Assembly: GCA_900318795.1 (NCBI GenBank)
Contig: ONLU01000028.1
Location: 1 to 33,735, forward strand
DNA: 33,735 nt
Source of the DNA: an uncultured Prevotellaceae bacterium
GTDB taxonomy: Bacteria > Bacteroidota > Bacteroidia > Bacteroidales > Bacteroidaceae
Reading direction: 5' to 3'
Shown: piece by piece, positions 11,809-32,989 of the stretch
How the letters are laid out: each line of letters opens with the position of its first letter
Position numbering within the stretch: the first letter of the stretch is position 1
Made by a program: the position numbers and the translations under genes
The notes under the pieces: model-generated
Database searches by the model: none
Told to the model about the DNA's origin: nothing
What the model saw: the letters and a program-made list of their open reading frames with translations, nothing else

Positions 11809-13170
11809 TCAGAAGATGATGTCGTACTGGCGTAGCTTCTGCATGAAGATGGCCTCGTGGGCTATCATGCGACACAAGTGGGCGTCTTCTGCGTTGATGG
11901 TTTGGGGACGATAGGTGTTGCTGTCTATGTTGCGCCCTGTCAGCATTTCGCACCAGACAGACGCTACAGTATAGCGCCCGAGGGTCATCGACAGGTGCTG
12001 GCCGTCGCGATTCAGTGTGTCGCCCTTGTGGTAACGCATCAGACGGATGGCTGTTCCTGAGGGGATGATGGTGTTGATGCTGGCCTTGGGGACCTCCTTG
12101 CGCAGGCAGTCGACAATGCTGTTGAACATGCGCAGCTGGTCGTTGCCATAGACTTCGAAGTTGGCACTCTTGAAGCTTTTGGCGTAGGCCCAGGTCATGT
12201 GCCACCAGATGTCCACTTTCTGATTGGTAGCCAGCAGCTTAACCTGGCGCTTCAGTGCTGGCAGGTTCTTGTAGGTGTCTGCAAGTCCTGAGACCAGACT
12301 GGCCTGTTGCAGGGTGATGATGTCCCACGGCTCGTCCAGGATGATGCGCTGCAACGTGACGTTCTTCTCTTCTTTCTTCTCGCCGCCTACCACCTTGCGA
12401 TAGGCATATTTCTTCCTCGAGTTCTTCAGGTTGTCCAGATGCATATCGATGGTGCAGGCTGGGATGTAGGCATTGCCGATGACCAGCGAGTCGCCTTGTG
12501 CTGCAGCCAGTTCGTAGAGGTTCTGCTCTACGGCATCTTCCGAGAAGCTGTTGCCGATAGCCAGTACTTTGACCAGTTTGGCGTCGATGGGCAGTGAGCA
12601 CATCAGCAGGCATAGCACGACGGCAATGGTGCGTGCAGCCTTGTGCAGCTTGCGCAGGGCTTGGTCGCGTATCTGTCGAACGCGCTCGCGCTTCAGTTCC
12701 ATGACCTCGCCAATCTCAGCCATGGTCTGACGCTCGTATCCGTTGCCGTAGTAGAGGTTCAGCACCCGTTGCTCGCGCTCGCTGAGGACGTTCATCACGC
12801 GCAGCAGGTCGTCGGTCAGCGTGTTTTCCTCAGCCACCAGGTCTGCCTTGTGGGCGTCTTTGTCTTCCAGCACGTTGAGCAGTGTGTAGTTGTTGCGACT
12901 GCCCACGGGTAGTGACTCGTCCGTAGAACGTACGTCGGTGTTGGTCTTCAGCCGGCTGATGGCAGACTCTATGCTGTGCCGGATGTAAGGTGCAGCAAAG
13001 GTGACGAATGGTTTCCCGCGTGAGGGGTCGTACTTGTCAGCGGCCTTCATCAGTCCGATGCTGCCCTCGCTGACCAGGTCGTCAATGCTCAGGATGTCGC
13101 TTTTGTACTGCCGGGCCAGGGTCACCACATAGCCCATATTGGCGGTGATAAGTTTGTCGCGTTCGGTCAT
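11809..13170 (-). CDS. Sigma-70 factor fused to DUF4886 SGNH-hydrolase domain
   Basis: A 453-residue reading frame from the ATG at 13170, which overlaps the stop of the GH5 gene (ATGA). Residues 1-72 are sigma region 2 (LITANMGYVVTLARQY, DLVSEGSIGLMKAADKYDPSRG, YIRHSIESAI). Residues 118-178 are region 4 with its helix-turn-helix (LSEREQRVLNLYYG, MAEIGEVMELKRERVRQIRDQALRKL). Residues 181-197 are a signal-peptide or TM-like stretch (TIAVVLCLLMCSLPIDA). Residues 198-453 are a DUF4886 domain with the SGNH signatures GNS (Ser208) and DGQH (Asp389/His392), so the hydrolase looks intact. The sigma part lacks regions 1.1/1.2 and is divergent. Sigma factors are cytoplasmic and DUF4886 proteins normally exported, so the fusion is odd. 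Alternatives are internal initiation near 12650 or a lost stop or indel. Confidence 0.75.
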   Translation of the reverse strand: MTERDKLITANMGYVVTLARQYKSDILSIDDLVSEGSIGLMKAADKYDPSRGKPFVTFAAPYIRHSIESAISRLKTNTDVRSTDESLPVGSRNNYTLLNVLEDKDAHKADLVAEENTLTDDLLRVMNVLSEREQRVLNLYYGNGYERQTMAEIGEVMELKRERVRQIRDQALRKLHKAARTIAVVLCLLMCSLPIDAKLVKVLAIGNSFSEDAVEQNLYELAAAQGDSLVIGNAYIPACTIDMHLDNLKNSRKKYAYRKVVGGEKKEEKNVTLQRIILDEPWDIITLQQASLVSGLADTYKNLPALKRQVKLLATNQKVDIWWHMTWAYAKSFKSANFEVYGNDQLRMFNSIVDCLRKEVPKASINTIIPSGTAIRLMRYHKGDTLNRDGQHLSMTLGRYTVASVWCEMLTGRNIDSNTYRPQTINAEDAHLCRMIAHEAIFMQKLRQYDIIF

Positions 13171-14117
13171 TTGTTGTACTTTAATAAGAGTCGTTTCACT
13201 AGTTTTCCGTATTCCTTGATGACGTCGTCTGTCCAAGGACCTGTAGCAGTTGCACGAGGAAGCAGCATCGAGCAGCTCTCGTTCTTGTCGCTGATGCTCC
13301 AGCATACCCAGCTGATGCCCAGGCGCTCACACATCTGTATCCACTGTTCCTCGCTCTCGGGGTCTATCTTGCCGTCGCCGGAGGCTTCTGTGGCTCCGCT
13401 TTCAGAGATGAATACGGGGATGCCCTTTTTGACGGCCTCTTCCGTGCGCTGGCGCAGATAGTCGCCGTGGGTGGCAGCATAGAAGTGGACGGTGTACATG
13501 ATGTTGTCGAAGCCCTGCAGGGGACTCTCGGCTACCAGGTGGATGTCCTGGTCCCAGTGTGGACAGCCTACCAGCACTACGTTGTCGGGGTCGTACTTGC
13601 GTATTTCGCCGATGACCTCGGAGGCGTATTTCTTCAGGTCTGCCCAGCTGTCTTCCACGGGTTCGTTGAAGATTTCATAGATGACGTGCGGATACTTGCC
13701 GTACTTCTGTGCCATCTGTCCGAAGAAGGCTTTTGCCTCCTGTGTCTTCAGCACGTGCGAGTGCCAGTCGATGATGACATACACGTTCTGCTTGATGGCA
13801 GACTCGATGACGGGTGTCATGCACTGCAGGGCGAAGGTCGGGTTCTCCAGATAGTTGTCTTCTATCATGATGCCCATGGCGGCACGTACCACTGAGGCGT
13901 GCCAGTCCTGCTTCAGGGTCTGCACGATTTTCTTGTTGTAGAATCGTGGCCAGAGGTTGTGCCATCCCAGGCTGACACCACGGAGAATAACTGGGTGTCC
14001 TTGCTGGTCGCACAGCTGGGCGCCTTTCACTTGCAACTGTCCGTACTGCTTGACGGGTTCTTGGGCTACTGCGTTCAGAACGCATAGACAAAGGATTGTA
14101 GTTAATAGCTTTTTCAT
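13167..14117 (-). CDS. GH5 endoglucanase-like secreted glycoside hydrolase
   Basis: A 316-residue protein starting at the ATG at 14117, chosen because it begins a signal peptide (MKKLLTTILCLCVLNAVAQ); any upstream extension would overlap cdsA. The GH5 fold is clear: ILRGVSLGWHNLWP, YVIIDWHSH, the acid/base motif IYEIFNEP (Glu152) and the nucleophile motif FISESGAT (Glu239), with a late Trp (VCWSISDK). It resembles subfamily 2 cellulases acting on beta-1,4-glucan, but the substrate is not proven by sequence. No carbohydrate-binding module. It lies 10 nt after cdsA and overlaps the sigma gene by 4 nt, so it belongs to the rsfS-ftsH-cdsA transcript, an unexpected place for a cellulase. Confidence 0.9.
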   Translation of the reverse strand: MKKLLTTILCLCVLNAVAQEPVKQYGQLQVKGAQLCDQQGHPVILRGVSLGWHNLWPRFYNKKIVQTLKQDWHASVVRAAMGIMIEDNYLENPTFALQCMTPVIESAIKQNVYVIIDWHSHVLKTQEAKAFFGQMAQKYGKYPHVIYEIFNEPVEDSWADLKKYASEVIGEIRKYDPDNVVLVGCPHWDQDIHLVAESPLQGFDNIMYTVHFYAATHGDYLRQRTEEAVKKGIPVFISESGATEASGDGKIDPESEEQWIQMCERLGISWVCWSISDKNESCSMLLPRATATGPWTDDVIKEYGKLVKRLLLKYNK

Positions 14118-14127
14118 ATGATTGAAG

Positions 14128-14976
14128 TTAAAAGAGTGACAGTGTGTATAGGTAGACCACTGCTGCCGGTATGGCGAGCAGCGATGAGTCGAAGCGGTCC
14201 AGCATGCCACCGTGTCCGGGCAGGATGTTGCCACTGTCCTTGATGCCCAGGGTGCGCTTGAAGAGGCTTTCTACCAGGTCGCCCCATGTGCCGAAGACCA
14301 CCACGACGAGTCCCAGTCCCAGCCACTGCAGCGTGTTGAGTATGCCCATGTCGATGTATTCGCCGATGAGGTAGGCAGCTGCCAGTACGAAGACGGCTCC
14401 TCCGATGCAGCCTTCCCACGATTTGCCTGGTGAGATGCGTGGGAAGAGTTTGTGGCGCCCCAGCAGCGAGCCGACACAGTAGGCTCCCGTGTCGTTCACC
14501 CACAGGAACACGAAGACGGACAGGGGCAGCAGGGTGTTGAAGCTGATGTGTCCGTTGGGTGTTGCCGTGAAGGCCAGCACGTTGAGCAGCGAGAAGGGTA
14601 GGGCGATGTACATCTGCGAGAGCATGGTGTATGCCCAGTTGTTGATGGGGTCTTCCTGCTTGGCGTAGAGCTCGGAGACGAGCAGATAGACCACTGTTAC
14701 CAGGTAGGGGATGAACACCACCGACTTGGCTGCTCCGCCATAGAGGTCGCTGCAGAAGTAGGTCATGGCGTAGAAGAAATAGACGCCGGCCACGGTGCAG
14801 ATGAATCGGTTGATGGTGACGCCGGGTCGTTCGTTGACGAGTCCGGCATACTCCCAGATGGTCATTCCTGTGACGATGCTGAACAGCAGCACCATCGCCT
14901 CTGGTCGCAAGAAGGACGCCACGATGGCTGCCACGAAGATGACGCCTGTAATGGTGCGGATAATAAGGTTCTTCAT
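14128..14976 (-). CDS. cdsA: Phosphatidate cytidylyltransferase (CDP-diglyceride synthase)
   Basis: A 282-residue integral membrane enzyme that makes CDP-diacylglycerol from CTP and phosphatidic acid, the branch point of phospholipid synthesis. The start at 14976 gives MKNLIIRTITGVIFVAAIVA, the first membrane helix, and falls 13 nt after the ftsH stop. Several hydrophobic helices follow. The C-terminal family signature SLFKRTLGIKDSGNILPGHG followed by GMLDR is complete, preceded by DTGAYCVGSLLGRHKLFPRI with SPGKSWEG. Length is typical. Confidence 0.95.
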   Translation of the reverse strand: MKNLIIRTITGVIFVAAIVASFLRPEAMVLLFSIVTGMTIWEYAGLVNERPGVTINRFICTVAGVYFFYAMTYFCSDLYGGAAKSVVFIPYLVTVVYLLVSELYAKQEDPINNWAYTMLSQMYIALPFSLLNVLAFTATPNGHISFNTLLPLSVFVFLWVNDTGAYCVGSLLGRHKLFPRISPGKSWEGCIGGAVFVLAAAYLIGEYIDMGILNTLQWLGLGLVVVVFGTWGDLVESLFKRTLGIKDSGNILPGHGGMLDRFDSSLLAIPAAVVYLYTLSLF

Positions 14977-14989
14977 ATCCTGTTGGGTT

Positions 14990-17101
14990 TTAGTTATTCT
15001 CGGGGGGTGTGCCGGGGTTTTCGGGTTCTCTGGGTTCTCCGGGTTCTCCTGAGGGCTCAGTGTCCTTCGTCTGTAATCCCAGTTCCTTGGCGCGGCGTTC
15101 TGCCATGGCCTCGGCCTCGGCTCGCTGCTGGGCTTCCAGCAGCTCTTCGGCACGGCTTGTCCAGGGACGCTTGCCGAAGATTCTTTCTACGTCGTCGGCA
15201 AAGATGACTTCGCGTTCAGCCAGCAGTTGTGCCAGTTGGGCGTGTCCTTCCTTGTGCTCGCTCAGTATCTGCTTGGCGCGTTCGTACTGCTCGCCTATCA
15301 TTTTCTTCACTTCCTCGTCTATCTGCCTGGCTGTGCTTTCCGAGTAGGGACGCTGGAAGCTGTATTCGCTGTTGTTGTAGAAGTTGAGGTTCGGCAGCTG
15401 TTCCGACATGCCGGCATAGGTCACCATGCTGAAGGCCATCTTGGTGGTGCGCTCCAGGTCGTTCATGGCACCTGTTGATATGTCTCCGATAAACAGTTCC
15501 TCGGCAGCGCGGCCTCCCAGCAGCGAGCACATCTCGTCGAGCATGGCGCGCTTGGTTTGCATGACGCGCTCCTCGGGCAGATACCAAGCGGCTCCCAGGG
15601 CGCGTCCTCGCGGTACGATGGTGACCTTGACCAGGGGGTTGGCAAACTCGGTGAACCAGGAGATGGTGGCGTGTCCGGCCTCATGGATGGCTATCGACTT
15701 CTTCTCGGCCTCGGTCATCACCTTCGTCTTCTTCTCCAGTCCGCCGATGATGCGGTCCACGGCGTCCAGGAAGTCCTGTTTGCCCACCTTCTCGCTGTTA
15801 TGGCGTGCGGCTATGAGTGCTGCCTCGTTGCAGACGTTGGCAATGTCGGCACCCGAGAATCCTGGTGTCTGGCGAGCCAGGAAGTCGATGTCGAGGTTCT
15901 CGTCCAGCTTCAGGGGCTTCAGGTGTACTACGAATATCTCCCTGCGCTCGTTCAGGTCGGGCAGCTCGACGTGTATCTGGCGGTCAAAGCGTCCTGCTCG
16001 CATCAGTGCTGAGTCCAGCATGTCGGCGCGGTTGGTGGCTGCCAGTGTGATGATGCCGCTGTTGGTGCCGAATCCGTCCATCTCGGTCAGCAGGGCGTTC
16101 AGCGTGTTCTCGCGCTCGTCGTTGCCGCCCATGGCGGGGTTCTTGCTTCGTGCACGGCCTACGGCGTCAATCTCGTCGATGAAGATGATGCAGGGAGCCT
16201 TCTGCTTAGCTTTTTCAAATAGGTCGCGCACGCGTGAGGCGCCTACGCCTACAAACATCTCGACGAAGTCGGAGCCCGACATCGAGAAGAAGGGTACGCC
16301 GGCCTCTCCTGCCACAGCCTTGGCCAGCAGCGTCTTACCAGTTCCCGGAGGACCTACCAGCAGGGCACCCTTGGGTATCTTGCCGCCCAGCTCGGTGTAT
16401 TTCTGCGGATTTTTCAGGAAGTCCACGATTTCCTGCATCTCCTGTTTGGCGCCAGCCTGTCCTGCCACGTCCTTGAAGGTGATGCCCAAGTCGCCGCCTT
16501 TCTCGTACATCTGTGCCTTGGACTTGCCTACGTTGAAGATGCCTGCTCCTCCCATGCCTGCTCCTCCACCGCCCATGCGGCGCATGATGAACATCCACAC
16601 GAAGATGATGCCGGCAAAGAACAGCACGTTCATCAGCAGTGAGCTGAAGAACTCGTTGTCCTTGGAGTTGTCGTACGAGAACTTGCCGGTGAACTTCTGC
16701 TCCTGTCGGGCTTGGTTGACAAACTGCTCCACCTGGCCTACATCGCCGATGGCTACCGTCACCGTGGGGCTCTTGCCAGTTTGCTGCACGCCCTGGTGGA
16801 ATACGTCGCGAATGTGCTCGGGCTTGACATACATCTCCAGCGAGTTCGAATGCTTGTTCACTACTATCTTGTCGGCATAGCCCTTCATGACCATCGTCTT
16901 GAAGTCCGAGTACGACGTTTCCGTCCTGACGCTCGACTGCTCGCTGCCCTGGGTGAAGTAGAGCAGCACCAGTGCCAGGAGCACCAGTCCGTAGATCCAA
17001 TTCATGTTGAATCGGGGCATGTTCATCTGTGGCTTGTTATTTTGATTCTGTTGCACGTTCTTGCTTTTTGTTTTTTGTTCTTTACCTTCATTTACCTTCA
17101 T
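14990..17101 (-). CDS. ftsH: ATP-dependent zinc metalloprotease FtsH
   Basis: A 703-residue inner-membrane AAA+ protease that degrades membrane and short-lived cytosolic proteins. Two transmembrane helices (about 34-51 and 153-173) enclose a periplasmic domain. A Gly-rich linker is followed by Walker A GPPGTGKT (250-257), Walker B IIFIDEID (305-312), the second region of homology ([20 protein letters not shown]) and the zinc-protease motif HEAGH (473-477). It is longer than the usual 610-650 residues because of a hydrophilic C-terminal tail rich in Pro/Glu/Gly ([21 protein letters not shown]). The start lies 5 nt after the rsfS stop, inside a 10-bp tandem repeat. Confidence 0.96.
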
Positions 17102-17108
17102 TTACCTT
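17081..17108. repeat. 10-bp tandem repeat at the ftsH start
   Basis: The octamer TTTACCTT occurs at 17081, 17091 and 17101, exactly 10 bp apart (period TTTACCTTCA). The minus-strand unit contains ATG, so a second ATG at 17091 lies in a different frame from the ftsH ATG at 17101. Loss or gain of one unit would shift the ftsH frame. Confidence 0.8.
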
Positions 17109-17466
17109 AGTCCACGTCGGGAATCTGTGTCAGCTCAGCGTCGTCCCACAGATGTTCCAGGTCGTAGTATTCGCGCACGTCGGGCAGAAAGACGTGCACC
17201 AGCACGTCGCCGTAGTCCATGGCCACCCACTGGGCGTTCTCCAGTCCTGCCACCGTCGAGGGCTTCTCGCCCATCTCCTTGCGTGCAAAGTCGCCGATGG
17301 ACTCAGTGATGGCCTCTACCTGCGAGGGCGAGTTGCCCTGGCATATCACGAAATAGCGGCAGATGGCCCCCTCGATGCTGCTCAGGTCTGCCACCACGAT
17401 GCGCTGTCCTTTCTTCTCTTGTATTCCTTTGGTAATCGTCTCTACTAAACTTGTTGTTTGCTCCAT
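17107..17466 (-). CDS. rsfS: Ribosomal silencing factor RsfS
   Basis: A 119-residue cytoplasmic protein of the RsfS/Iojap family. It binds ribosomal protein uL14 and blocks joining of the ribosomal subunits when nutrients are scarce. Family features: ADLSSIEGAICRYFVICQGNS near the N-terminus, then VAGLENAQWVAMDYGDVLVHVF and EYYDLEHLWDDAE at the end. Length is typical (105-130). First gene of the rsfS-ftsH-cdsA-GH5-sigma unit, with a -7 promoter element about 33 nt upstream. Confidence 0.95.
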   Translation of the reverse strand: MEQTTSLVETITKGIQEKKGQRIVVADLSSIEGAICRYFVICQGNSPSQVEAITESIGDFARKEMGEKPSTVAGLENAQWVAMDYGDVLVHVFLPDVREYYDLEHLWDDAELTQIPDVD

Positions 17467-21100: not shown

Positions 21101-22561
21101 TTATTTCACAGGAATGTCCTCGAGTGTCTTCTTCAACAACTCCCAGAAGGGAGCGACGGTCTCGATGAGGGCGCGCTCTGTGGTGGTGTGCGGAGACTTC
21201 ATCGTGGGACCGAGGCTGACAACGTCCAGATGCGGATACTTGCCCAGGATGACTGAGCACTCCAGTCCGGCATGGTCTACCTGGATGATGCCGTCCTGTC
21301 CGAACAGCTCCTTATACTCCTTCAGCAGCAGGTGCAGAATCTCTGAGTCGGGATTGGGGTCCCAGCCTCCGTAGGAACCGCTGGTCTCTACCTTCATGCC
21401 TGCCATTGAGAAACAGCTCTGCAGCATGGTGGCTACGTAGTCCTTCATGTCCTCACGGCTCGAGCGAGCCAGAATCTTGATAGAAGCGTGTCCGCCTTCG
21501 ATGTTGATAATGGCCAGGTTCGACGAGGTCTCTACCACGCTGGGATAGGCTGGTATGAAGCGGATGACTCCGTCGTGGCAGGCGAAGATGGCATCCACCA
21601 GGTTGTCCTGAATCTCAACGGGCACTTCCTTGGCAGGCGTTGCTACATCCTCTACGAGGACTTCGATGCCCTGTGGCTCAATCAGCTTGAACTCGTCGTT
21701 GAAGGTCTCCTGCCAGTCTGCTGCCATCTCTTTCAGGGCGGCAATGTTCTCCTTAGGCAGTGTCAGCACAGCCTCGGCCTTGAAGGGAATGGCATTGCGC
21801 ATGTTGCCACCGTTCCAGGAGGCCAGTCGGGCTTCCGTCTCGCTGATAGCCTCGCGGACTATCTGTACCAACAACTTGTTGGCATTGCCACGGCCCTCGT
21901 TGATCTCCAAGCCGCTGTGTCCGCCGCGCAGGTTCTTTACCGTTACGCGTACGGCAGCATCCTCTGCGTCGGTGTCTGCCTCCTGATAGTCCAGTGTGGC
22001 AGTTACGTCAATGCCGCCAGCACTGCCTATGACAAACTTACCCCAGTGCTCAGAGTCCAGGTTCATCAGGATATCGCCCTGCAGCTCGCCTTCAGGCAGC
22101 TCGTTGGCTCCAAACATGCCTGTCTCTTCATCGCGGGTGATGAGGGCGTCAATGGGACCATGCTTCAGGGTCTTGTCCTCCATGACTGACATGATGGCAG
22201 CAACGCCCAGACCGTTGTCGGCGCCCAGTGTGGTGCCCTTGGCCTTTACCCATTCGCCGTCTATCCAAGGCTCAATGGGGTCTGTCTCGAAATGATGCTG
22301 TGACTCGGGCGTCTTCTGGGGCACCATGTCCATGTGGGCCTGCAGGATGACACCCTTGCGGTTCTCCATGCCTGCAGAGGCGGCCTTGCGCATCACTATG
22401 TTGCCTGCGGGGTCCTTGAAGACCTCTACACCGGCTTGCTTGCCGAAGTCGAGCAGGAATTGCTGTATTTTCTCCAGATGTCCGCTGGGACGTGGTACTT
22501 GTGTGAGTGCATAGAAGTTTTTCCAGATGCACTTCGGATTCAGGTTCAGAATTTCGTTCAT
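21101..22561 (-). CDS. pepD: Cytosolic aminoacyl-histidine dipeptidase (M20)
   Basis: A 486-residue zinc dipeptidase of family M20 that cleaves Xaa-His and other dipeptides. The start at 22561 gives MNEILNLNPKCIWKNFYALT; upstream codons in this frame only overlap the preceding gene. Motifs: metal and catalytic block LQAHMDMVPQK, then GTTLGADNGLGVAA, the general-base block ITRDEETGMFGA, HSGLEINEGRGNANK, and the terminal metal ligand region LGPTMKSPHTTTE. Length matches PepD (about 485). It follows the LPG-synthase-like gene after 29 nt, suggesting co-transcription. Confidence 0.93.
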   Translation of the reverse strand: MNEILNLNPKCIWKNFYALTQVPRPSGHLEKIQQFLLDFGKQAGVEVFKDPAGNIVMRKAASAGMENRKGVILQAHMDMVPQKTPESQHHFETDPIEPWIDGEWVKAKGTTLGADNGLGVAAIMSVMEDKTLKHGPIDALITRDEETGMFGANELPEGELQGDILMNLDSEHWGKFVIGSAGGIDVTATLDYQEADTDAEDAAVRVTVKNLRGGHSGLEINEGRGNANKLLVQIVREAISETEARLASWNGGNMRNAIPFKAEAVLTLPKENIAALKEMAADWQETFNDEFKLIEPQGIEVLVEDVATPAKEVPVEIQDNLVDAIFACHDGVIRFIPAYPSVVETSSNLAIINIEGGHASIKILARSSREDMKDYVATMLQSCFSMAGMKVETSGSYGGWDPNPDSEILHLLLKEYKELFGQDGIIQVDHAGLECSVILGKYPHLDVVSLGPTMKSPHTTTERALIETVAPFWELLKKTLEDIPVK

Positions 22562-22590
22562 AGTTTTTTGTTTTTTTTGTATGATATTGT

Positions 22591-23568
22591 TTATTTGATC
22601 TTCGTGAAGTTCAGTGCCAGCCAGGCATAGACGCCCAGCAGCACGACGAGCATGGTCTGTATGGTATGGACGATGAGCACAAAGTAGAGGGCTTGCTCGT
22701 CGGCTACACCATAGAGAATGAGCATGGTCTTGACTGCAAAGTGCCAGGGACCAGCACCGTTGGGCGTGGGTACGATGACGGCTATAGAGCCTACGATGAA
22801 CGTGACCAGAGCACAACCCAGACCCAGGTCTGCCGTGAAGTCGAAGCAGAAGAAGGTGAGGTAGTAGTGCAGGAAGTAGCTCAGCCAAATGCCTAAGGTG
22901 AAGAAGACGAACAGCGGAATGTTGCGCACATCCTTCAGCGAGATGACGCCCTGCCAAATGCCGCGCAATGTCGCGCGTACCTTATTATATATTGACAATT
23001 TTCGCAACAGGAAGTGTAGCAGGATGAGAATTGCTGCCAGGCAGACGGCTACCACCAGATAGCCCGTCAAGGAGAATTTCTGCAGAATGCCCTGGATGCT
23101 GGTACCTGTCTTCTGAAAGAAAGTGCCAAAGGTGCTCATCTCCAACAACAGCACCATCATGGTGATGCCCATTACCAGCAAGGAGTCGATGGCACGTTCT
23201 GTCACCACCGTTCCCAGGGCTTTGGGGAACGAGATGTTGTCGTAGCGCTTCAGGACGCCACAGCGTGTGAACTCACCCACACGGGGTATGAGCAGCGATA
23301 CGGCATAGCTCAGGAAGATGCTGTGTACGCTGACTGACTGACGGGGCTTCTCGCCTACAGGCTCCAGTGTCTGGCGCCAGCGCCATCCGCGGAAGGCCTG
23401 TGCCAAGATGCCAAAGGGGAACGACAGCAACATCCAAGTCCAGTTCATCTCGTCGGTGGCAACATGGACGATGGTCTGCCAGTCTTCGCCTCTGTACATC
23501 CAGTAAAGGATGGCACCGCCCAGCGCCAAGGGCATCAGTATCTTCAATATGATGTTGCTTATCTTCAT
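22591..23568 (-). CDS. Lysylphosphatidylglycerol synthase TM-region family protein (YbhN-like)
   Basis: A 325-residue integral membrane protein with about 8 hydrophobic helices, matching the flippase-like membrane domain of MprF (UPF0104 / YbhN). Recognisable blocks are WRWRQTLEP near residue 68, the SYAVSLLIPRVGEFTRCGVL loop followed by KRYDNISFPKALGTVVTERA, and IAVIVPTPNGAGPWHF in the C-terminal half. There is no aminoacyl-transferase domain, so it is a stand-alone membrane domain; a lipid-related transport role is inferred from the family. It has its own promoter and is followed by pepD. Confidence 0.88.
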   Translation of the reverse strand: MKISNIILKILMPLALGGAILYWMYRGEDWQTIVHVATDEMNWTWMLLSFPFGILAQAFRGWRWRQTLEPVGEKPRQSVSVHSIFLSYAVSLLIPRVGEFTRCGVLKRYDNISFPKALGTVVTERAIDSLLVMGITMMVLLLEMSTFGTFFQKTGTSIQGILQKFSLTGYLVVAVCLAAILILLHFLLRKLSIYNKVRATLRGIWQGVISLKDVRNIPLFVFFTLGIWLSYFLHYYLTFFCFDFTADLGLGCALVTFIVGSIAVIVPTPNGAGPWHFAVKTMLILYGVADEQALYFVLIVHTIQTMLVVLLGVYAWLALNFTKIK

Positions 23569-29910: not shown

Positions 29911-32900
29911 TTACCCTAAAACTATACTTTCAAAATAGTGGATGTAGAGTTGGTGGAAATTAATCATATCGGTTGTCTGGAAACAGTTGGCGGCCCACTC
30001 CATCTCGGAGTCGAAGCGGCCGGAGTTGTCGTCATTCTCCAGGAACTCCAGTTCCAACCGGGCACCGGGAGCCTGGTGTGTGTTGCTGAGTTCCAATTGG
30101 AAGGGGTAGAGCTCGTCCAACTCGTCAGCATTGATGTTCAGCTGGTAGTTGACTTCCATGGGGTCGCTGTAGAAAGGAGAGTCGCTGTTGGCAAAAAAGT
30201 CATAGCTGCAGTGGGTAATGCCGTCTGTCACCTGTTTCTTCACCTCGGCAAGTGCTTCTTCGACACTGTGTATCTGGTCCATGTGCAGACCTACGGGAAG
30301 ATTCTTGATGAGCATTCCCACTGAATCTGTGGCGAAGCTGCCCAGTCGGTTGTTGAATATCCAGTTGGTCATCACGTCGTTATTACCTGTCATCTTGTGT
30401 AGTGCCAACAGACCGGCTGTGATGGCAATGACGCTTCTCGAGGAATTCAGACGAGACTCGGCGGCCTCAAGGTCCTCTGCGTCAAATGGCAGTCGAACTA
30501 CGCGCCTTCCTGCCTTTAGTTTGCGCATCCCTTCCTTGACAGGGGCTGGAACTGTGCACCAATCGTACCCTCCATATTGTGACTGGAAGTAGGCTTTATC
30601 TTCCTGATATTGTTGAGACTTGTGAAGACGCTCCTCTGTGGCCAGATAGGTGCAGTAATAGTCTTTCGGCAACGGCTCACCCTTGTAGGCTCGTACCACG
30701 TCGGCCAGCACAATGCTCAGCGACGAGCCGTCCATAAGCAAGTGGTGGACGTCGAAGAAGAGGTAGGCATAACGGTCTGTCTGGAACATGCGTACCCGCA
30801 GCAGTGGTGAGTTGAATATGCTGAAGGGCTCCACCAGTGAGTCGGCCATGCTGACCACTTCTATGTCAGTCATGGGCTCCAATATCACCTCTGGAGTCAG
30901 CTCCGGATGGTAGGTTTGTACGAGATGGCCTTCGTCGTCAAAGGATATCCTCATGGAGAGCGCCGGATGATTACGGATGGCGTCATTGACTGCCTGGCAC
31001 AGTCGCTTGGCATCTGTCTTTCGGTTAAAGCGGAACAGGTAGTACATGTTGTTCCACATGGTAGAATCGACATTGACAAACTGGAAATCGACCATTTTGG
31101 TCTGCATCATGCTCAGCCTGTGAGGCCTCTTGCGTTCCTGCTCCTCTATCTCGTCAAGCGATTTCCCCTGCTTTTTCTCTTGTAGCATGGCGGCTATTCG
31201 TTCTATGGTGCGCAGTGAGAAAATGTCGGAACTCATGATGTTAAGTGGCTGCAAACGTGACAGTAGCATCATGCTCTTCAGTGAATCACCTCCCAGTTCA
31301 AAGAAGTCGTCCGTGATGCTGATTTCTTCTTGATCCATGTGTAGCACTTCTGCAAAAGCGTCTCGCAGTTGTCGCTCCATGTCGTTGTGCGGAGCCTTCA
31401 TCTCGTGAACAGAGGCTGTTGGTTCTACGTCGGGCAAGGCTTTTCGATCCACTTTGCCATTGACGGTCTCGGGCAGCGTGTCCAATTGTGTGATGACAGC
31501 AGGTATCATATATTCAGGCAACTGTTGGCGCAGGAAGGTGCGCACCTCGTCCATGTCCAGTGGTGCGGAGGCAGTCAGATAGCCTGCCAAGTAGTCGGAC
31601 TTCCCATGACAGAGTTTGACGGCACTTCCCTTGACGGTGGGATAGGTGCTCATCACCTGTTCTATCTCGTCTAACTCAATGCGGAATCCGCGAAGTTTAA
31701 TTTGGTTGTCAATGCGTCCCCATATCTGGATACGCCCGTCTGATGTCCATGAAGCGAGGTCGCCGCTATGGTAGGCACGCATACCCTGATACGTGAAGAA
31801 GGCTTTTGCCGTCTTCTCAGGAAGCTTTACATACCCACGGCCTACACAGTCACCACAGATAATCAGTTCTCCTTTTTCACCTACGTTCAGTTCCTCGCCC
31901 TTGTCGTTCATGACATAGAAACAGGTATTCACCATCGGACCGCCAATGGTAATATCGCCATCGTTCTCCATCACTGCAGACGAACAGCCCATAGTGCACT
32001 CAGTAGGACCATATACATTCAGGATGATACTGTCTTCGCGTATCTCGCGCAGCCTGCTGTACAGTCCGCTGGGAAATGCCTCGGCACCGATGTCGTAGAA
32101 TCGGATTTGCCGCAGTGCTTCCCGACAGATGTCCATATCCACAATATTCACCAGAAAGGTCGGGGTACATGTAATGCCCGTCACTCCGCTGTCTGTAATG
32201 GCCTTTGCCAACAGCAGCGGATTGTGAATCTCCTCATCCGTGGCCATACAGACCGTATTACCATTACATAAAGGAACAAACTGTTCCACAATGGAAACAT
32301 CGAAAGAGAAGGCTGCCATAGCCAGCGATACCATGCCAGGTGACGCATAGTGCATGATTTCTATGGACTTCTCGTCTCTTTGAACGTAGTTGGCAAGGTT
32401 TCCCTGTTCGATGAGTACTCCTTTGGGTCTTCCTGTAGAACCTGAGGTGTAGATGCAGTATGCCAGGTCGTTCTTGCCGATGTCGTCTGACGATGGGTAA
32501 GCCGTCAAAGACTCGTCATACGTGCTGCAGATGCCAGGGATGTCCTCCATGCAGATGATTTCAAATCCCTTGTCGGAAAGTTCGTCATGTTCTGTCAATA
32601 CTTTACGGCTGGTCAGCAAGACTGGCACGTCACCATCTTCCATGCAGAAACTGATGCGGTCGTCTGGATAGGACGTGATGAAGGGGAGAAAAGCAGCATG
32701 TGCTTTCAGAATGCCTTGCTCGGCATAGTAAGCATATTCCGACCGTTCCAGCAACACTCCCACGAGGGTATCCTTGTCTAGGTGGCGTGATAGCAGTACA
32801 TTGGCTACGCAGTTTGATTTCTTATCCAGTTCAGCATAACTGATCTTACGTCCTGAAACAATGACTGCCGTCTTCTCTGGTTGTTCGATGGCATGTCGGT

Positions 32901-32973
32901 GAATCTGTTCCGATGCTGGAACAAAAGGAAAGTCCGACCTTGTTTGATTGGCTTGTTCAATAATCTTTTCCAT
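29911..32973 (-). CDS. Nonribosomal peptide synthetase module, A-PCP-C
   Basis: A 1020-residue protein from the ATG at 32973 (a TTG four codons earlier is less likely). Adenylation domain, residues 20-515: IYTSGSTGRPKG (174-185), FDVSIVEQF, NVYGPTE (319-325), YHSGDLASW, GRIDNQIKLRGFRIELDEIE, and NGKVDRKAL with Lys507. Carrier domain: DDFFELGGDSLKSM, phosphopantetheine Ser564. Condensation domain, about 618-1020, with intact HHLLMDG (743-749). There is no thioesterase, reductase or upstream module, so release must come from the terminal C domain or a partner. By-eye binding-pocket residues are D225, V226, V229, T268, Y293, I295, V320, M328, G329, K507; Asp225 indicates an alpha-amino acid. No phosphopantetheinyl transferase gene is in the window. 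Confidence 0.93.
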   Translation of the reverse strand: MEKIIEQANQTRSDFPFVPASEQIHRHAIEQPEKTAVIVSGRKISYAELDKKSNCVANVLLSRHLDKDTLVGVLLERSEYAYYAEQGILKAHAAFLPFITSYPDDRISFCMEDGDVPVLLTSRKVLTEHDELSDKGFEIICMEDIPGICSTYDESLTAYPSSDDIGKNDLAYCIYTSGSTGRPKGVLIEQGNLANYVQRDEKSIEIMHYASPGMVSLAMAAFSFDVSIVEQFVPLCNGNTVCMATDEEIHNPLLLAKAITDSGVTGITCTPTFLVNIVDMDICREALRQIRFYDIGAEAFPSGLYSRLREIREDSIILNVYGPTECTMGCSSAVMENDGDITIGGPMVNTCFYVMNDKGEELNVGEKGELIICGDCVGRGYVKLPEKTAKAFFTYQGMRAYHSGDLASWTSDGRIQIWGRIDNQIKLRGFRIELDEIEQVMSTYPTVKGSAVKLCHGKSDYLAGYLTASAPLDMDEVRTFLRQQLPEYMIPAVITQLDTLPETVNGKVDRKALPDVEPTASVHEMKAPHNDMERQLRDAFAEVLHMDQEEISITDDFFELGGDSLKSMMLLSRLQPLNIMSSDIFSLRTIERIAAMLQEKKQGKSLDEIEEQERKRPHRLSMMQTKMVDFQFVNVDSTMWNNMYYLFRFNRKTDAKRLCQAVNDAIRNHPALSMRISFDDEGHLVQTYHPELTPEVILEPMTDIEVVSMADSLVEPFSIFNSPLLRVRMFQTDRYAYLFFDVHHLLMDGSSLSIVLADVVRAYKGEPLPKDYYCTYLATEERLHKSQQYQEDKAYFQSQYGGYDWCTVPAPVKEGMRKLKAGRRVVRLPFDAEDLEAAESRLNSSRSVIAITAGLLALHKMTGNNDVMTNWIFNNRLGSFATDSVGMLIKNLPVGLHMDQIHSVEEALAEVKKQVTDGITHCSYDFFANSDSPFYSDPMEVNYQLNINADELDELYPFQLELSNTHQAPGARLELEFLENDDNSGRFDSEMEWAANCFQTTDMINFHQLYIHYFESIVLG

Positions 32974-32989
32974 TAACTTAATCAATATT

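Follow-up and report, generated by a model that had tools for sequence, protein, structure and literature searches.

A rare in-frame fusion of a short sigma-70 factor with a DUF4886 SGNH-type hydrolase in Prevotella-type bacteria, and its possible resolution by signal-peptide processing

How could a sigma factor be used by a cell that encodes it in one uninterrupted frame with a predicted exported esterase? This question is raised by a gene of an uncultured Prevotellaceae bacterium (assembly GCA_900318795.1), located on a stretch of 33,735 nucleotides, hereafter the window, that represents an entire contig (C29, ONLU01000028.1) of an assembly of 2.77 Mb in 71 contigs with a completeness of 88.47%. 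Provided that the full-length chain is produced, nature would here offer a sigma factor with a DNA-binding helix that leads almost straight into a signal sequence and with no anti-sigma domain found. Such a fusion would allow one to test whether the processing of a signal peptide is sufficient to release a transcription factor. It also connects DUF4886, an uncharacterized SGNH family, to a small sigma factor of Prevotella-type bacteria.

The gene is encoded on the minus strand, where positions 13170 to 11809 form a single stop-free frame of 453 codons plus stop; the first frame of the plus strand contains stops in the same interval (11809-13170). A sequence-only reading, which gave no strand, had described a frame of this length with sigma regions, a hydrophobic stretch and a DUF4886 domain, and this architecture was confirmed for the minus strand, on which all features of the gene lie. 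Region 2 of the sigma-70 family extends over residues 7-74 (12949-13152; Pfam PF04542, Sigma70_r2, 6.6e-14) and region 4 over residues 126-175 (12646-12795; PF04545, Sigma70_r4, 1.4e-14), and according to the alignment the end of the last helix, RKLHKAAR, lies just behind. Immediately C-terminal to this motif, between region 4 and DUF4886, follows TIAVVLCLLMCSLPI, the sole strongly hydrophobic stretch of the chain (residues 181-195; 12586-12630), which corresponds to the signal peptides of separate DUF4886 genes. The 15-residue Kyte-Doolittle mean peaks here at 2.55 (residue 181), and no 15-residue segment starting outside residues 166-199 exceeds 1.6. Behind it, a candidate signal peptidase I site (A197/K198) was assigned by eye. 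The remainder of the chain is a DUF4886 SGNH hydrolase domain (residues 201-440; 11851-12570; PF16227, 1.3e-84) that covers profile positions 1-242 of 242. An in-frame ATG within region 4 (M157; 12700-12702) is a possible internal start of the esterase. Another ATG upstream of the annotated start would extend the frame to 498 amino acids, but it is an unlikely start that lies inside the preceding glycoside hydrolase gene, and the aligned relatives begin at residues 1-3.

Both halves can be assigned to known families. The sigma half contains regions 2 and 4 of the sigma-70 family, while Pfam gave no match to region 3 (Sigma70_r3) in the window frame up to an E value of 0.1. With no match to this region, and with full RpoD and RpoS models scoring far under their cut-offs, the protein does not fit the group 1-3 (RpoD-type) sigma factors. 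Its size fits ECF sigma factors, and TIGR02937 is matched with 92.5 bits against a cut-off of 42.9. Region 4, however, scores 53.7 bits with Sigma70_r4 versus 18.6 bits with Sigma70_r4_2, which is below the cut-off of the latter model, and the best solved relatives of the sigma part are SigA and RpoS. Membership of the second half in the DUF4886/SGNH hydrolases follows from the full-length profile match and from the GNS and DGQH motifs, which had been claimed before and were found here aligned with those of relatives in a complete SGNH-type domain; GNS and DGQH are blocks of SGNH hydrolases. The solved DUF4886 relative, 4i8i, is a "hypothetical protein", and the accessible text of a 2022 review of SGNH hydrolases gives no known activity for DUF4886 (PMC9487903). 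We regard this half as a predicted exported esterase. An anti-sigma domain could not be identified in the chain with Pfam, and only a few residues separate the end of the region 4 match (175) from the start of the hydrophobic segment (181). Elsewhere in the same assembly, a search at an E value of 0.001 returned matches to the sigma half alone in three places (about 29-31% identity), and no second DUF4886 gene was among the matches listed.

The fusion is real, rare and common to two species. A search of related genomes for the same fusion, of the kind that the sequence-only reading had proposed, revealed a second species (G596; locus L082 on its contig C21, with L085 being the same place) that has a fused gene of 453 codons with the same neighbors. 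A gapless alignment of the two fused genes spans 1362 bases, with 75.5% DNA identity, and sigma regions 2 and 4 were also recognized in the second one (L085). In both genomes it is the last part of the recognition helix of sigma that contributes the positive charges preceding the hydrophobic segment (KLRRLCR-TALTLLLLLLTAATAEA in G596), as had been suggested for the window. Relatives were collected in overlapping draws from the genus, comprising 150 (E 1e-20), 398 (1e-70), 398 (1e-100), 277 (1e-110) and 328 genomes (1e-100), and in a further draw of 397 relatives (1e-100) that overlaps with these. Among the matches listed, only the window and G596 showed a stop-free match across all 453 residues, a count that distant or differently spaced fusions may escape at such strict E limits. 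One contig search yielded 12 loci (five from Prevotella/Prevotellaceae, three with an adjacent unfused pair, two with DUF4886 but no sigma match), and the named relatives of the whole frame or of the DUF4886 half are Prevotella and Prevotellaceae metagenome-assembled genomes. When 40 genomes around G204, a genome listed as belonging to the window's genus, were searched at the DNA level, no match spanning the junction was obtained; viral contigs contributed one distant sigma factor only, and none of 81 matching phage records covered 80% of the query.

Reading of the retrieved loci with an adjacent pair, after removal of 15 with an identical junction, gave 31 distinct sigma/DUF4886 junctions. 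Two of these are fused, and 29 consist of two genes with a stop in between, including that of the nearest relative, Prevotella sp. UBA2456 (L037). Separate genes in close relatives had been named in advance as an argument against the fusion; they are indeed the usual state, but the fusion itself stands, as a second species has it. In the split junctions the sigma stop lies 2-15 residues past the KL of the last helix. DUF4886 then has a start of its own, in most cases M(K/R) followed by a hydrophobic run. When the nearest plausible start is chosen, as was done by us, the two genes overlap by at most 8 bases or are up to 162 bases apart. The distance from the matched sigma end to the DUF4886 start is 42 nt in both fusions versus 47-237 nt in the others. 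Since 29 of the 31 junctions are unfused, separate genes are probably also the ancestral state.

Whether one fusion event or two gave rise to the known cases was addressed with phylogenetic trees. In the tree of sigma and DUF4886 the window pairs with the unfused locus L102 (support 93/94), and a pairing with L085 is not rejected (AU p 0.104). In the tree of the neighboring genes both fused loci belong to a group of five (98/98) whose other three members are unfused; here the pairs window+L085 (p 0.0388, a mild rejection) and window+L102 (p 0.0305) were evaluated. In comparison with many relatives, synonymous sites approach saturation, and an attempt at a species tree recovered rpoB in seven of ten genomes, the window's own assembly not being one of them. 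Two independent losses of the junction that ended at the same codon are somewhat favored by these trees; alternatively, a single DUF4886 fusion may have been followed by exchange of the locus between species. At another locus (L100, G040) the neighboring genes cluster with the window's relatives, whereas sigma and DUF4886 fall elsewhere in the trees, a discrepancy that points to an exchange of this pair among species.

The fused frame is located at the end of a close-packed string of minus-strand genes, rsfS (17107-17466), ftsH (14990-17101), cdsA (cytidylyltransferase; 14128-14976), a GH5 glycoside hydrolase gene (13167-14117; PF00150) and sigma-DUF4886. The GH5 stop overlaps the sigma start (ATGA), and GH5 is upstream in most relatives. 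DUF5020, lpxB and surE are encoded nearby on the opposite strand. G596 has rsfS, ftsH, cdsA, GH5, lpxB and surE all in place, and the relatives with an adjacent pair have the same gene order with local differences (DUF5020, GH5, lpxB or surE missing in some stretches). FtsH had been put forward as a protease that might release the sigma factor. Its gene is indeed the third one upstream in the same string, but the functional link is weak because ftsH-cdsA is found upstream of fused and unfused pairs alike. Further away, positions 29911-32985 of the window encode an NRPS-like protein with AMP-binding, carrier and condensation domains; MatE transporters and a GH36 gene lie close by.

DUF4886 also occurs in other contexts. 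Genes about 75-80% identical to that of the window but without a nearby sigma gene are present in L098 (4566-7858), where DUF4886 follows the gene of an M20 peptidase and a membrane gene of the LPG-synthase type, and genes of similar length in L093 and L096. The window contains an M20 peptidase/LPG-synthase-type gene pair as well (21101-23568), with no DUF4886 behind it. In L025 (positions 1-2313; G090) DUF4886 and a GH3 glycoside hydrolase share one frame that is open at the end of the locus, hinting at polysaccharide de-esterification. In G276 (L112), a candidate rejected as a sigma fusion, the 3' end of a DUF4886 gene is extended in frame by ~200 residues that resemble, by eye, a second, diverged SGNH-type domain.

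Sigma genes that run into other partners were found in addition. Most sigma matches of the 150-genome draw were fetched with downstream sequence (85 stretches, among them two DUF4886 loci and one place that was obtained twice). The length of the frame past residue 166 was then measured in all loci retrieved, which comprise 136 distinct sigma loci and extend to distant sigma genes from other genera. In 132 of them the frame runs on for no more than 32 residues. The four exceptions continue for 288 (window), 288 (L082), 839 (L114) and 167 residues (L115), and in each a hydrophobic segment (12-residue mean 2.54-3.05) starts 16-24 residues after position 166. L114 (1496-4705; G118) measures 1070 residues from stop to stop and combines sigma regions 1.2, 2 and 4 with a hydrophobic segment, a Reg_prop propeller and a C-terminal AraC-type HTH_18 domain, a possible sigma-sensor-regulator chain in this one genome; no copy of its partner occurs in the other loci examined (best other E 0.011). 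In L115 (1368-2582; G008) the sigma frame is joined to a small protein without a Pfam match that keeps its own ATG and looks exported by eye (MKHTLLLLVAFMLGMPVMAQ). Sigma genes are followed by relatives of this partner at six other places, where a stop intervenes or the frame differs; one of these places is contig C37 of the window's own genome (L004, L005), with the relative in a separate frame. The family may be a conserved sigma partner. L114 and L115 are known from one genome each, where a frame error is possible. Further candidates for long sigma frames were rejected, as there are stops after the sigma tail (G197, G248) or 5' continuations only (G050, G023). With two further sigma genes in frame with other exported proteins, the pattern appears wider than one accident, and short sigma factors may have been joined to exported partners repeatedly in the genus. 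Among the sigma genes read, four have such a partner, of three types in all, so that the phenomenon goes beyond an oddity of a single genome.

We propose, with a probability of about 0.48, that the window carries a rare fusion in which the Sec signal of the partner is now internal, and that signal peptidase and an RseP-type protease convert the chain into roughly the two products of the separate genes. In relatives, a short RpoD-like sigma gene adjoins a DUF4886 gene with a signal-like N-terminus of its own; by comparison, the window and G596 are missing the sigma tail, the stop, the start codon of the esterase and its first charged residues, which leaves one frame. The charged end of region 4 would replace the lost n-region and turn the old signal peptide into an internal signal sequence, so that sigma would face the cytoplasm and the esterase the outside. 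Signal peptidase I could then free the esterase by cutting after IDA (AEA in L082; sites assigned by eye), and an RseP-type site-2 protease might subsequently release the sigma factor with a short tail. Sigma release would thereby be coupled to export of the partner. The cell would obtain roughly the same two products as from separate genes, and this would account for the repeated tolerance of such joins. The window's genome encodes an RseP-type protein (207.6 bits versus a family cut-off of 147.55). A folded domain of 180 residues ahead of a signal sequence is unusual. RseP of Escherichia coli is described, in the accessible text of the source, as removing remnant signal peptides after cutting by leader peptidase (PMC8144685).

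The conservation of the junction is consistent with the proposed processing. Between the two fused genomes its residues vary (pN 0.563) while hydrophobicity is kept; residues 165-182 contain six and seven Lys/Arg, respectively, and the segment ends with IDA-K or AEA-K. Conserved hydrophobicity, a Lys/Arg flank and an A-K end with otherwise variable residues are as in signal peptides. The main alternative, which we consider less likely, is a sigma factor that stands tethered to the membrane by an uncleaved signal anchor. DUF4886 would then lie outside, serving as a sensor or as a handle for processing, and proteolysis upon a signal would set sigma free. The hydrophobic segment could be such an anchor. 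The domain order of sigma, hydrophobic segment and outer domain (topology deduced from hydropathy and charges) and the presence of the fusion in two species would fit a tether, as would the related sigma of L114 with its sensor-like partner (Reg_prop, HTH_18); the adjoining GH5 gene and the DUF4886-GH3 frame elsewhere hint at a polysaccharide context, and precedents of sigma factors with membrane C-terminal extensions are reported in the available parts of two studies (PMC8999054; PMC5826349). However, Pfam finds no anti-sigma domain, a plausible cleavage site is present at the end of the segment, and the ftsH neighborhood is unchanged where the fusion is missing. The idea of a sense-and-transcribe device is moreover weakened by the 29 of 31 split junctions, because most relatives read encode sigma and esterase as two proteins, and processing as a signal peptide is the more economical explanation. 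A generalization of our proposal appears rather unlikely, namely that repeated joins behind region 4 to the signal sequences of partners have created export-licensed sigma factors, which would be free only after Sec export and clipping so that transcription would report export of the partner.

It is improbable that the frame represents two nested genes, the esterase being translated from ATG 150 or ATG 157 inside region 4 and carrying a long charged n-region, while the full chain is minor or harmless. In-frame ATGs are present in both fused genomes, and the partner in L115 keeps its own ATG and an MKH-type signal start inside the joined frame. Yet the ATGs in the DUF4886 case encode ordinary region 4 residues that are common to several unfused relatives. 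Neither synonymous conservation at codons 150-182 (14 of 24 identical versus 0.617 overall; permutation p 0.72) nor RNA folding at the junction (z 0.85) is unusual, and the sigma factor would still carry the esterase because no stop exists. Still less probable is a decaying state in which fusion cripples one half, for example a sigma factor unable to reach promoters. The fusion is rare (2 of 31 junctions), and on the window lineage versus that of L037 polarized changes number 10 versus 5 in DUF4886 (36 sites unpolarizable), with 3 versus 6 in sigma (11 unpolarizable). Pfam nevertheless finds all domains in both fused genomes, and purifying selection acts on both halves, with dN well below dS between the window and L082 (0.133/0.832 for sigma, 0.199/0.840 for DUF4886); no clear decay of either half is seen. 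An assembly or frame error, as might be suspected in a draft contig whose nearest relatives read are split, can hardly be the cause, because the very same arrangement of 453 codons, again without a gap, recurs in a second genome that is clearly diverged.

Membrane-fused ECF sigma factors are known, while the openly available literature searched yielded no report of a fusion between a sigma factor and an SGNH hydrolase. The following comparisons are based on the accessible parts of the cited sources. In IutY of Pseudomonas putida (ECF243), a membrane-bound chain with a cytoplasmic sigma domain and a periplasmic domain, the sigma domain is freed by Prc and RseP (PMC5411451). A comparable chain of sigma factor, hydrophobic segment and outer domain may be present here, with the topology predicted from hydropathy and charges. 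Unlike IutY, which unites an ECF sigma factor with an anti-sigma domain, the window encodes a short RpoD-like sigma factor joined to an SGNH domain; Pfam detected no anti-sigma domain in this chain, and its processing is putative. The ECF52 family, e.g., SCO4117 of Streptomyces, likewise has a sigma domain, a transmembrane region and a carbohydrate-related outer domain in one chain (PMC5826349), and proteolytic release of its sigma domain is an expectation (PMC5826349; PMC8999054). ECF52 proteins, however, contain a zinc finger and a carbohydrate-binding domain and are described as exclusive to Actinobacteria, whereas here an SGNH domain follows almost directly after region 4. The SigI/RsgI systems of cellulolytic clostridia combine operon-linked sigma control with outer sensory modules and saccharolytic genes (PMC6056542); in contrast to the window fusion, their outer module resides on a separate anti-sigma protein. 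With the DUF4886 family at large, finally, the window shares the full-length domain and its SGNH motifs, but at 29 of the 31 junctions this domain is encoded by a gene of its own.
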